A stretch of DNA of 45,437 nt from Spirochaetales bacterium (GTDB lineage: Bacteria > Spirochaetota > Spirochaetia > Sphaerochaetales > Sphaerochaetaceae). The notes beneath the pieces were generated by a model that saw only the letters and a list, made by a program, of their open reading frames with translations, had not been told where the DNA came from and did not search any database. A program made the translations under genes and the position numbers. Location of the stretch: contig JAQYHB010000026.1 of NCBI GenBank assembly GCA_028722305.1, positions 1-45,437 of the forward strand. The letters run 5' to 3'. Every line of letters begins with the position of its first letter. The first letter of the stretch is position 1. Below, in pieces: positions 1,263-5,041 of this stretch.

Positions 1263-2581
1263 CGTCGGCGTATGTGGTGCTCTGGGGCACAATCATTGGT
1301 TCCGTCGTATTTGACGAGAGGCGGAAGATCGGAATTTTCGAATACGATCCGGCGTTCAGGACTTCGCGCATTGAGGTCTCGCCGATTGTCATGCCGCTTT
1401 CCGCCCGGAGATACGAGTTCCCTCAGTTGCGGGCGGAGTCCTTTCACGGACTGCCGGGATTGCTCGCCGACAGCCTGCCCGACAAATTCGGCAATGCCGT
1501 CATAGACGCATGGCTCGCGCATCAGGGAAGAAGCCCTCAGTCGTTCAATCCCGTCGAGCGTTTGTGCTACACGGGTAGCAGAGGCATGGGCGCGCTTGAA
1601 TATGTCCCTGCGCGCGGCCCGGACCCGAGGGAAAGCCAACAGATCGAGATTGACCGGCTTGTCGAACTCGCTACAAAAGTCCTGCAGGCGAGAAAAGGCA
1701 TGCATGTGGTTCTCGGAACCGATTCCCTTGAGGAAATCATCAAGGTGGGCTCTTCGGCGGGAGGTGCGAGGGCTAAGGCCGTCATCGCGTGGAACGAGAC
1801 CACCGGGGACATCAGGTCCGGCCAGCTTCCTGCCGGAATCGGGTACGGGAACTGGCTCATGAAATTCGACGGGGTGGATGGCAACGGCGATAAGGATGGG
1901 GATGACGGTCCCCAGTACACCCGGATCGAGTACGCGTACTACCTCATGGCTTTGGCATCCGGAATCGACATGTCGGAATGCAGGCTTCTTGACGAAGGCG
2001 GGCGGAGGCACTTCATGACACGACGGTTCGACAGGGACATGCGTACCGGAGACAAGATCCATATGCAGACCCTCGGCGCGCTGGCCCATTTCGACTTCAA
2101 TGTGAGCGGCGCATACAGCTATGAGGACGCGGCGAGGATCATGAGAAGGCTCAGGCTGCCGTACACGGATATGGAGCGGTTGTTCCGCCGGATGGTGTTC
2201 AACGTGCTCGCCTGGAACCATGACGACCATGTGAAGAACCTGTCTTTCCTCATGGACCGCAACGGCACATGGTCGCTTGCTCCCGCATATGACGTCACGT
2301 ACGCATACAAACCGGACAGCATGTGGGTGAGCAGCCATCAGATGACAATCAACGGAAAACAAAGCGACATCGGGTTGCGCGACCTTCTCGCTGCAGGGGC
2401 CAATATGGGAATCAGGGAAAGCCGGGCCCGGTCCATTGTCATCGAAGTGAAGGACGGGATCGGTGGATGGGATGGCTTCGCGAAAAGCGCTGGTTTGTCC
2501 ATGCGGGTCGCCGGCGCCATCGGCGCGAAACTCTTGGAATCGCAAAGGCGATTTTCCCGTGAACTGCAAGCGATTGTCTGA
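1259..2581 (+). CDS. hipA: HipA-family serine/threonine kinase toxin
   Basis: At 440 residues it matches the length of E. coli HipA. It contains the HipA N-terminal domain (about 1-110), the glycine-rich VGSSAGGARAK loop (163-173) whose serine region is the autophosphorylation/ATP-lid segment, the WLMKFD strand with the ATP-binding lysine (202), the catalytic WNHDDHVKNLSFLMD loop (319-333) and the metal-binding AYDVTYA (343-349). HipA kinases phosphorylate aminoacyl-tRNA synthetases (GltX in E. coli) and trigger dormancy; the target here cannot be told from sequence. All catalytic residues look intact, so the toxin is probably active. It is coupled to hipB by a four-base overlap. Confidence 0.92.
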   Translation: MTSAYVVLWGTIIGSVVFDERRKIGIFEYDPAFRTSRIEVSPIVMPLSARRYEFPQLRAESFHGLPGLLADSLPDKFGNAVIDAWLAHQGRSPQSFNPVERLCYTGSRGMGALEYVPARGPDPRESQQIEIDRLVELATKVLQARKGMHVVLGTDSLEEIIKVGSSAGGARAKAVIAWNETTGDIRSGQLPAGIGYGNWLMKFDGVDGNGDKDGDDGPQYTRIEYAYYLMALASGIDMSECRLLDEGGRRHFMTRRFDRDMRTGDKIHMQTLGALAHFDFNVSGAYSYEDAARIMRRLRLPYTDMERLFRRMVFNVLAWNHDDHVKNLSFLMDRNGTWSLAPAYDVTYAYKPDSMWVSSHQMTINGKQSDIGLRDLLAAGANMGIRESRARSIVIEVKDGIGGWDGFAKSAGLSMRVAGAIGAKLLESQRRFSRELQAIV

Positions 2582-2650
2582 GTCCGTTACCGCATTGTTC
2601 CGGGGCCCATTCATTCCGAAGGAAGCGCAGGCGGCCGAGGGTGCCTTCCA

Positions 2651-2680
2651 TTGACTTTTCAGACTGCATTCTGCTAGATT
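2651..2680 (+). promoter_or_regulatory. Promoter of the tRNA-Val / riboswitch transcript
   Basis: TTGACT (2651-2656), an 18-base spacer and TAGATT (2675-2680) with an extended TGC just before it. Predicted transcription start is near 2687, only about three bases ahead of the mature tRNA 5' end at 2690. No second promoter is visible between the tRNA and the riboswitch. Confidence 0.65.
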
Positions 2681-2689
2681 TGTCTCTGC

Positions 2690-2761
2690 GGCCGGATAGC
2701 TCAGTGGGAGAGCAGGTGCCTTACACGCACCGGGTCGGGGGTTCAAACCCCTCTCCGGTCA
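2690..2761 (+). tRNA. tRNA-Val (anticodon UAC)
   Basis: Folds as a full cloverleaf. Acceptor GGCCGGA (2690-2696) pairs with TCCGGTC (2754-2760), with one G-T pair. The D stem is GCTC/GAGC. The anticodon stem GGTGC/GCACC holds loop CTTACAC with anticodon TAC at 2722-2724. The T stem GGGGG/CCCTC holds loop TTCAAAC. The discriminator base is A2761. CCA is not encoded. The manganese-type riboswitch begins within five bases of the 3' end, so the tRNA must be cut from a longer transcript. Confidence 0.95.
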
Positions 2762-2765
2762 AACT

Positions 2766-2880
2766 GAAGGGGAGTAGTCCTGAAAAGGATGGAGTCAACA
2801 GCCGGCAGTAGCCTGGTTCCATCCAACCGCATGTGGCGGGTGCACAAGACCTTCTGGATATCAAGTCCAGGGGGTCTTGT
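2766..2880 (+). ncRNA. yybP-ykoY-type manganese riboswitch
   Basis: The conserved landmarks appear in order: GGGGAGTAG (2769-2777), a TCCT-GAAA-AGGA hairpin (2778-2789), GTCAACA (2794-2800) and GCACAAGACCTTC (2842-2854). A five-base P1 helix GAAGG/CCTTC (2766-2770 with 2850-2854) closes the element, as in the known family. Between them lie hairpins CCGG..CCTGG and CCGC/GCGG. The expression platform overlaps the 3' end: ACAAGACC (2844-2851) can instead pair with GGTCTTGT (2873-2880) to make a terminator. Mn2+ binding would protect the aptamer and let transcription continue, an ON switch, as known for this class. Assignment is by recalled consensus, not a covariance-model search. Confidence 0.8.
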
Positions 2881-2890
2881 TTGTGTTTTC
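2844..2890 (+). terminator. Riboswitch-controlled terminator (also the only visible tRNA-Val terminator)
   Basis: ACAAGACC (2844-2851) pairs perfectly with GGTCTTGT (2873-2880), with an inner CTGGA/TCCAG stem (2854-2858, 2866-2870) and loop TATCAAG. A T-rich tract TTGTGTTTT follows (2881-2889). The 5' arm is the conserved aptamer segment, so aptamer and terminator exclude each other. Confidence 0.75.
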
Positions 2891-2908
2891 CCCTGAAAGG
2901 AGTTTCGT

Positions 2909-4189
2909 ATGGACAAGATGCAAGTCGGAGTGCTTGCGATGGTGCTGGCAATGTATGCCGTCGTCATCCTCAAAAGCGAATGGAAGGTGTGGGCAAGCGT
3001 CGTCTGCGCTGCGCTCATGGTCGCCACCGGGGTCGTCGGCATCCATGAGGCGTTCTTTTCCATGATCAACTGGAACGTATTGATGATCTACGTGGGGTCG
3101 ATGGTCATCGCCGAGATGTTCCTGTACAGCAAGGCGCCGGCCGTGCTTGCCGACCGGATCATCTCCACCAGCAAGAATGTCGGGCATGCCATCGTCGCGA
3201 TTCTGGTCATGACCGGCATCATCAGCGCCTTCGTCGAGAACGTAGCCACCGTCCTGGTCATGGCTCCCATCTGCCTCGCGCTGAGCAAGAAGCTGAAGAT
3301 GGACCCGACCTACTTCATGGTCGGCCTTGCCGTCATGGCCAACCTCGAGGGGACCGCCACGCTGGTAGGCGACCCTCCGAGCATGATTTTCGCCAACTAC
3401 ACCGGCTACGGGTTCAATGACTTCCTGTTCCACGAGGGCAGGATTTCCATCTGTTGGTTCATACAGGTCGGCCTCTTGGCAGGCGCCTTGTATTTCCTCT
3501 TCCATTTCCGCAATGCCGAGCAGCCGCCGAAGGTGGAGGGAGAGAAGATGGTCAGTTGGGTGCCGACCATCCTGCTTCTGGGCATGATCTTCGGCCTGGC
3601 CCTCTGCTCCTTTCTGCAGAGCGGTGTCGGATTCCTCAGCGGTTCTTTCGTGCTTGCCTTGGGCGTTGTCGCCGCCCTCTGGTACCTGCTGGGACAGAAA
3701 AAGGGGAAGGGAGAGACCATTTCCATGCTTCGCGGCCTGGATTGGGAGACCATTTTCTTCCTTGCCGGCATCTTCGTGGTCGTCGGGGGGATCGAGAACT
3801 CCGGGCTTCTGGAGCTGCTTGCCGGACACATGGAGTCCCTGATCGGCGGCAACGTCCTGGTCGGGTTCATCCTGATCCTGCTGGTTTCCGTCCTGATCAG
3901 CGGCTTTGTCGACAACGTCCCCTACATCATGGTGATGCTGCCGGTCGCCGACCAGCTTGGCAGGGGGCTCGGCCTGGCACCCGAACTGTACATGTTCGCC
4001 CTGTTGATTGGCTCCTGCCTGGGCGGCAACCTGACCTGCTACGGCGCTTCGGCCAATGTGGTCGCCGTCGGCATCCTGAAGAAGCACGGCGTTCCCTGCA
4101 ACTTCGGCAACTGGCTGAAAATCGGGGTTCCGTTCACCTTGCTCACCACTGCCGCGTCGGCTGTTTCCCTCTGGCTCGTCTGGGCCTGA
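2909..4189 (+). CDS. ArsB/NhaD (SLC13-like) ion transporter under manganese-riboswitch control
   Basis: A 426-residue polytopic membrane protein with roughly 11-12 hydrophobic segments. Two pseudo-symmetric halves each carry an ion-transporter signature: SAFVENVATVLVMAPI followed by GTATLVGDPPSM in the first half, and SGFVDNVPYIMVMLP followed by GSCLGGNLTCYGASANVV in the second. These place it in the ArsB/NhaD permease group of the ion transporter superfamily, whose members move arsenite, Na+/H+ or organic anions. AAAGGAG (2896-2902) sits six bases before the ATG. The manganese-type riboswitch directly upstream suggests a role in Mn2+ export or in relieving Mn2+ stress; that substrate is inference, since the usual partners of this riboswitch are MntP, TerC, UPF0016 and P-type ATPases. 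Confidence 0.85.
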   Translation: MDKMQVGVLAMVLAMYAVVILKSEWKVWASVVCAALMVATGVVGIHEAFFSMINWNVLMIYVGSMVIAEMFLYSKAPAVLADRIISTSKNVGHAIVAILVMTGIISAFVENVATVLVMAPICLALSKKLKMDPTYFMVGLAVMANLEGTATLVGDPPSMIFANYTGYGFNDFLFHEGRISICWFIQVGLLAGALYFLFHFRNAEQPPKVEGEKMVSWVPTILLLGMIFGLALCSFLQSGVGFLSGSFVLALGVVAALWYLLGQKKGKGETISMLRGLDWETIFFLAGIFVVVGGIENSGLLELLAGHMESLIGGNVLVGFILILLVSVLISGFVDNVPYIMVMLPVADQLGRGLGLAPELYMFALLIGSCLGGNLTCYGASANVVAVGILKKHGVPCNFGNWLKIGVPFTLLTTAASAVSLWLVWA

Positions 4190-4196
4190 GGCACGT

Positions 4197-4225
4197 TTGC
4201 AACATCGGGACTGTTTTGGTACGAT
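4197..4225 (+). promoter_or_regulatory. Promoter with leaderless spacing ahead of the CmpB-type gene
   Basis: TTGCAA (4197-4202), 17-base spacer, TACGAT (4220-4225). Only six bases separate the -10 box from the ATG at 4232, and no Shine-Dalgarno sequence is present, so the mRNA probably starts at or next to the start codon. Confidence 0.55.
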
Positions 4226-4231
4226 AGTGCC

Positions 4232-5041
4232 ATGCAGTCCCATGTGGTTTTCCAGCAGTATGTCCTGTACTTCGTCGTGTATTCCGTCTGCGGGTATTTC
4301 GCGGAGGTCACCTACTGCTCGTTGCTCCAGCGCAAGCTGGTCAACAGGGGGTTCCTGTACGGGCCATGGATCCCCATCTACGGTTTCGGCGGCCTTGTCA
4401 TCCATGTGGCGACCTCTTCCCTGCACGTTGCCGCAAGCAATCCGGTGGTCGTCTTCTTCACCAGCATGGTGAGCGCTTCGGTCATCGAGTACATCGGTTC
4501 CTGGTGGATGGAGAAGGCCTTTGGGCTGAAGCTGTGGGACTACAGCAAGCACCGCTTCAACATCAATGGCCGCGTCTGCCTGCTGAACAGCACGCTGTTC
4601 GGCTTGGGCGGACTGGCATTGACTTACGGCGGCCATTCCTCGGCAGCCGGCTGGGTTGACAGGCTCAGCCCGCAGGCCCTCGCCTGGTCGAGCAATTCGT
4701 TGTTGCTGCTCTTCACCATCGATTTCGTCTGCTCCGTCTACCGGCTCAAGAAGTTCCGTGAGGGACTGGCGGAACTGCAGCGCTTGGTCGAGCAGGGAAG
4801 GGAGAACCTCGAGCTGCTGAAGACGATGGATCGCAAGGAAGTGGTGGAATTGGTCCAGAATCGCTTTGCCGAGAAGGCGGCCTTGTGGAAAGGGAACTTC
4901 GGGCGTCAGGGCAAATTGCTTCTGTCCAAATTCCCGACCATGCGTGGAGGTTCGCTTCCCCACATGGACGAGCTGCTTGAGCTGTTGAAGGCCGAAGATC
5001 CCCTGAAAGAATTCAAACAAAAGGTTCTGAAACATGATTAA
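4232..5041 (+). CDS. Putative ABC-transporter type IV (CmpB-like) membrane protein
   Basis: A 269-residue protein. The N-terminal half (about 8-170) has four or more membrane segments and the family hallmarks CGYFAEV, NRGFLYGPWIPIYGFGG, EYIGSWWMEK and LWDYSKHRFNINGRVCLLNS, typical of the CmpB / PF06541 family. These proteins were named from sequence as ABC-transporter-like, but no ATPase partner is next to it and no function is established. The C-terminal third (about 175-265) is a charged, probably coiled-coil cytoplasmic tail. The downstream yggS start overlaps its last codons by eight bases, so the two are translated together. Confidence 0.75.
   Translation: MQSHVVFQQYVLYFVVYSVCGYFAEVTYCSLLQRKLVNRGFLYGPWIPIYGFGGLVIHVATSSLHVAASNPVVVFFTSMVSASVIEYIGSWWMEKAFGLKLWDYSKHRFNINGRVCLLNSTLFGLGGLALTYGGHSSAAGWVDRLSPQALAWSSNSLLLLFTIDFVCSVYRLKKFREGLAELQRLVEQGRENLELLKTMDRKEVVELVQNRFAEKAALWKGNFGRQGKLLLSKFPTMRGGSLPHMDELLELLKAEDPLKEFKQKVLKHD

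Follow-up and report, generated by a model that had tools for sequence, protein, structure and literature searches.

Riboswitches are usually thought of as the 5' leaders of mRNAs that start at promoters of their own, whereas transcripts that join tRNAs to a protein gene are exemplified by the Escherichia coli thrU-tyrU-glyT-thrT-tufB unit, in which tRNAs and mRNA share one primary transcript and are separated by processing. Among manganese riboswitches, the transcriptional type of yybP-ykoY element from L. lactis is the closest described system: Mn2+ stabilizes helix P1.1 and so keeps its 3' strand out of the terminator, and the gene is turned on (PMC11087558). In the X. oryzae structure the metal-contacting bases are A10 and A48, of which A48 is key to Mn2+ sensing (PMC6754395). 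The spirochaete locus described here has in common with the L. lactis riboswitch the L1 sequence GGGGAGUAG, the L3 sequence UCAACA, a four-way junction, and a P1.1 helix set against an intrinsic terminator; it differs in that a tRNA lies upstream in place of a promoter start and in that the terminator would also end the tRNA transcript. With the E. coli tufB unit it would share co-transcription of tRNA and mRNA, but the E. coli unit has no ligand-gated terminator between the two. No description of a tRNA-riboswitch unit was found in the literature searched (open-licence papers).

The window, by which we mean the whole stretch of 45,437 nucleotides analyzed, belongs to genome G000, which was compared with two other genomes of its genus, a group of uncultured spirochaetes, G001 and G002. 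We consider it likely that tRNA-Val(UAC), a Mn2+ riboswitch, and a transporter gene form a single unit that arose and operates as follows. One transcript would start at the tRNA promoter and run through all three elements, and RNase P and RNase Z would free the tRNA at any manganese level. When Mn2+ is low, the hairpin at 2844-2880 would form and the transcript would stop roughly 120 to 130 nt past the tRNA; when Mn2+ is high, the aptamer would stabilize P1.1, the terminator would be blocked, and polymerase would enter the transporter gene. The manganese-controlled terminator of the riboswitch would double as the tRNA terminator and gate the transporter. The insertion of the riboswitch-transporter block between tRNA-Val and a CmpB-like gene would date from the ancestor of the genus. 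The features of the locus are as follows.

2651-2680, forward strand: promoter-like site TTGACT-18-TAGATT with a TG before the -10, the sole candidate for the whole unit.
2690-2761, forward strand: tRNA-Val, anticodon TAC (UAC), on which ARAGORN and Rfam agree (64.9 bits); CCA is not encoded.
2762-2765, forward strand: spacer AACT, which links the discriminator base of the tRNA to P1.1 (sequence); the RNase Z cut is predicted after 2761.
2766-2854, forward strand: yybP-ykoY Mn2+ aptamer (sequence, alignment, and covariance model).
2766-2770/2850-2854, forward strand: P1.1, 5 bp in the window.
2769-2777, forward strand: L1 GGGGAGUAG, part of the aptamer core.
2787-2797/2814-2824, forward strand: P3.1.
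2795-2800, forward strand: L3 UCAACA, which includes A2800, the A48 equivalent.
2827-2830/2836-2839, forward strand: P4.
2845-2851, forward strand: C.AGACC, part of the aptamer core, which closes L1.
2844-2889, forward strand: intrinsic terminator, made up of hairpin 2844-2880 and an interrupted U tract, which shares strand 2850-2854 with P1.1.
2895-2902, forward strand: Shine-Dalgarno sequence GAAAGGAG of the transporter gene (sequence).
2909-4189, forward strand: transporter gene (CitMHS/ArsB, ion transporter superfamily; 426 aa), with its ATG at 2909.
4232-5041, forward strand: CmpB-like gene (PF06541), the right border of the inserted block, found directly after tRNA-Val in sister genera.

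A pattern scan of positions 2300 to 5000 returned a single sigma-70-type match, the site at 2651-2680 before tRNA-Val, in agreement with the original prediction that one promoter precedes the tRNA. Shuffled sequence also gives about one such match, and the weight of this result rests on the position of the site right before the tRNA and on its identity in G002. The corresponding promoter in G001 was weak by consensus in the scan and reads by eye as TTGCCT-17-TATATC. Among the 38 tRNAs of G000 above the cut-off, two more serve valine, with anticodons GAC and CAC, and tRNA-Val(UAC) was found as a single copy in this assembly, which is 95% complete. The G001 tRNA-Val(TAC) (L006:2921-2994, minus strand) has the T loop GTCCAAAT, with a C at the nearly universal U55 position, which may reflect an error in sequencing or mark an unusual tRNA. 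Upstream of the tRNA, a helix-turn-helix/HipA-type gene pair occupies positions 732 to 2581 of the window (HipA, 1259-2581) and is present in G000 and G002; HipA had no match in the stretch of G001 that was read.

The aptamer follows the tRNA closely. Its first helix had been predicted to begin at 2766 after a gap of five bases; P1.1 does begin there, and the gap is of four bases, after which the aptamer opens with GAAGGGGAGUAG. RNase Z is encoded, with scores over the cut-off, in all three genomes, and a cut after the discriminator base (2761) would leave a leader that starts with AACU, 4 nt before P1.1 (2 nt in G001). Because the juxtaposition of tRNA and aptamer recurs in G001, G002, and the named contig RUG023, it is neither a chance event nor an assembly error.

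Whether the junction lies within one transcript or between two depends on the signals around it. Right after tRNA-Val, a terminator-like hairpin with a T run was present in 25 of 27 sister-genome loci, and between tRNA-Val and the aptamer it was present in none of the three genomes of this genus. The promoter-driven riboswitches of the Treponema type (L018, L068, L069, L091, and others) share the aptamer, the terminator layout, and an orthologous transporter with the window, but they have no tRNA and do have a promoter of their own: a promoter-like site whose -10 ends 10 to 22 nt before GGGG was found in all eight such leaders, and in seven of them it was matched by fewer than 5% of shuffles. 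Neither in the window nor in G002 or G001 did a scan for the sigma-70 consensus find a -10/-35 pair from which the aptamer could be transcribed by itself, which bears out the expectation that there is no second promoter. Because neither a second promoter nor a terminator was found before the aptamer, unlike in the relatives, co-transcription of tRNA, riboswitch, and transporter gene is the simplest reading. The proposal that the tRNA is the 5' part of the riboswitch mRNA gains support from the one promoter-like site, from the missing signals at the junction, and from conservation in three species.

There might instead be two transcripts, the tRNA being ended by an unrecognized terminator or pause and the riboswitch mRNA starting from an unrecognized promoter in the tRNA gene or at its 3' end, an arrangement that we regard as rather unlikely. 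Promoters within tRNA genes are conceivable, and since the scans know the sigma-70 consensus only, which the tRNA promoter of G001 itself fails, promoters may have been missed. Even so, no hairpin plus T run separates position 2761 from the aptamer, no -10-like hexamer with a well-placed -35 occurs at the junction in three genomes where promoter-driven relatives have one, and any promoter there would have to fit into sequence already constrained by the tRNA.

Sister genomes of the family have the order tRNA-Val(UAC), terminator, CmpB-like gene, and YggS gene, with CmpB following tRNA-Val in 21 sister loci. In all three genomes of the genus the tRNA-riboswitch-transporter arrangement is kept, and the order is tRNA-Val, aptamer, transporter, CmpB, YggS. 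The transporters of G000, G001, and G002 are 65 to 95% identical, and those found with tRNA and aptamer (these three and RUG023) form one clade with support of 99/99. Treponema and its relatives have orthologues of 55 to 65% identity; the other family members searched have only proteins of about 35% identity. The single clade, the synteny with and without the block, and this pattern of identity together make a single gain most likely, by which the ancestor of the genus acquired the riboswitch-transporter block at the 3' end of tRNA-Val. The orthologous riboswitch-transporter of Treponema has its own promoter; in this genus both the tRNA terminator and the riboswitch promoter appear to be gone, so that each half would use the signal of the other. 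Presence and absence of the block suggest a horizontal origin from Treponema, a question that the transporter tree, with weakly supported deep forks, does not settle. In most of the orthologues retrieved from Treponema, the 700 bases upstream do not contain the aptamer core, and Mn2+ control is thus not general for this transporter. Downstream of the transporter gene, TTGCAA-17-TACGAT (window positions 4197-4225) may be a promoter of the CmpB-like gene, which therefore need not belong to the manganese unit.

The 3' strand of P1.1 (2850-2854) is also part of the terminator, making the two structures mutually exclusive, and the predicted fold switches between them. RNA ending at 2862 was predicted to form P1.1, and when the 3' half of the terminator was added, the terminator replaced P1.1; the tRNA cloverleaf stayed intact in both predicted folds. 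By analogy with the L. lactis riboswitch, the switch in the window would respond to Mn2+ by turning the gene on. In G000 and G002 other bases interrupt the terminator U tract, and termination may for this reason be leaky or incomplete.

It could then be asked whether the leader is an inherited accident, that is, one transcript with a decayed leader or a leaky terminator, in which Mn2+ no longer has a bearing and the transporter is simply expressed from the tRNA promoter. The interrupted U tracts fit such decay, as does a P1.1 of just 5 bp in the window. We nevertheless hold it to be quite unlikely, given that the core has stayed whole in three species across the transporter divergence given above. 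P1.1 has moreover changed in step, from GAAGG/CCUUC in G000 to GAAAGG/CCUUUC in G001, which is one pair longer, and all three species retain the terminator stem (-19 to -27 kcal/mol).

A more intimate role for the tRNA, in which the uncleaved pre-tRNA hinders the aptamer until RNase Z cuts, so that tRNA maturation would be coupled to manganese sensing, seems very unlikely. Ensemble folding first drew attention to such crosstalk: removal of the tRNA raised the probability of P1.1 from 0.80 to 0.99 in the window and from 0.53 to 0.94 in G001. When the other 37 tRNAs of G000 were placed before the same aptamer, however, the median P1.1 probability was 0.85 and 16 of them came no higher than tRNA-Val, and the tRNA is transcribed and able to fold before the aptamer exists. 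Because the drop in P1.1 is ordinary among these 37 tRNAs, the crosstalk was rejected as a candidate and the tRNA is not treated here as part of the sensor; it would act as the supplier of the promoter. It also strikes us as rather improbable that the arrangement is a stable unit in which a single-copy tRNA has no terminator other than the metal-gated one, the RNase Z cut defines where the aptamer RNA begins, and maturation and manganese sensing are mechanically coupled. The preferred reading remains a tRNA that would lend its promoter to a manganese switch.

The identity of that switch was established by alignment and covariance modeling. The Rfam Manganese model (RF00080) gave the window aptamer 16.9 bits (E=0.01), short of the cut-off of 45, a gathering score that is a reporting cut-off and not a biological definition; the E. 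coli mntP riboswitch, at 41.6 bits with the same library, also falls under it. The cut-off is strict, and Rfam alone is too insensitive for these leaders. Twelve leaders were aligned: three from this genus, eight promoter-driven orthologues from Treponema and relatives, and E. coli mntP. The motifs GGGGAGUAG, CAACA, UGG, and C.AGACC were invariant across all twelve, and A2773 and A2800 aligned as the counterparts of A10 and A48. The window thus contains L1 GGGGAGUAG, L3 UCAACA with the invariant Mn2+-contacting adenosine, and AGACC. Covariation supported the conserved helices P1.1, P1.2, P3.1, P3.2, and P4: both sides varied in 17 of 25 pairs, a count equaled in none of 500 shuffles, and 86.8% of cells were paired, compared with 32 to 49% when the partner strand was slid. 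A first model (R1) includes the window and E. coli mntP, making its scores for those two circular; a second (R2), built to avoid this from the eight Treponema-type leaders alone, scored the window at 63.3 bits (E=2.8e-16), G001 at E=8.9e-16, E. coli mntP at E=2.3e-9, and, in sister genera, leaders that precede MntP-type genes at E of about 1e-5. E. coli alx was not reported by R2 at E values up to 1 and was weak with R1 (15.3 bits). The aptamer's identity as a yybP-ykoY Mn2+ riboswitch is, on this comparative evidence, a firm assignment, and it is extremely improbable that some other structured leader follows the tRNA: the sub-cut-off Rfam score that would favor one is paralleled by E. coli mntP, and the independent model, which also finds the MntP-type leaders, agrees with the invariant core and the covariation.

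Matches to the aptamer model were found in 36 of 393 Spirochaetota genomes. In the sister genera g11 and g16, Mn2+ aptamers under the Rfam cut-off precede MntP-type genes (L282 to L288), indicating that Rfam misses a whole clade of such leaders. These riboswitches have the organism family and the aptamer class in common with the window; they differ in controlling the known type of Mn2+ exporter and in having their own upstream region and no tRNA. In a genome of the Treponema family, sub-threshold Rfam matches to the TD-1 and TD-2 RNAs adjoin a Mn2+ aptamer (L290:1199-1350). Outside the genus, one more close upstream tRNA was found among the readable loci, in a distant spirochaete (L308:1350-1660; G193:C234). 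There, tRNA-Gln(CTG) with the promoter TTGACA-17-TAATAT is followed by a 46-nt AT-rich linker, the aptamer, a terminator, and a 45% identical transporter. L308 shares with the window a tRNA with a good promoter before the aptamer and the transporter type; it differs in its longer AT-rich linker, which has a weak inverted repeat and leaves room for separate promoter and terminator signals. One such case among about 30 loci is not far from chance if, as we estimate, roughly 40 of 2,500 genes are tRNAs.

A pattern joining the tRNA T-arm to GGGGAGTAG matched once in the 393 genomes of the phylum, in the window, although it misses G001, whose T loop has GTCC. The same pattern matched once in 274 Treponema-family genomes, at a site with no tRNA. 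Matches on viral contigs were rejected as chance, the aptamer model giving E values of 0.33 or worse among the loci kept from the matches listed. The plasmid collection returned short matches only, inside the tRNA.

Known parts are combined here in a new way; the unit is conserved in one genus, has a readable history, and is not a new RNA class. A riboswitch has apparently been captured by a tRNA transcription unit, to which the tRNA gives the promoter and the switch gives the terminator, and a manganese-controlled gene seems to be expressed from the promoter of a housekeeping tRNA. The locus offers a natural experiment on three questions: the extent to which a riboswitch needs a 5' end of its own, the way tRNA 3' processing proceeds when a folded aptamer lies only four bases off, and the rewiring of regulons by insertion beside tRNA genes. 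The sister genomes without the block make the steps readable.
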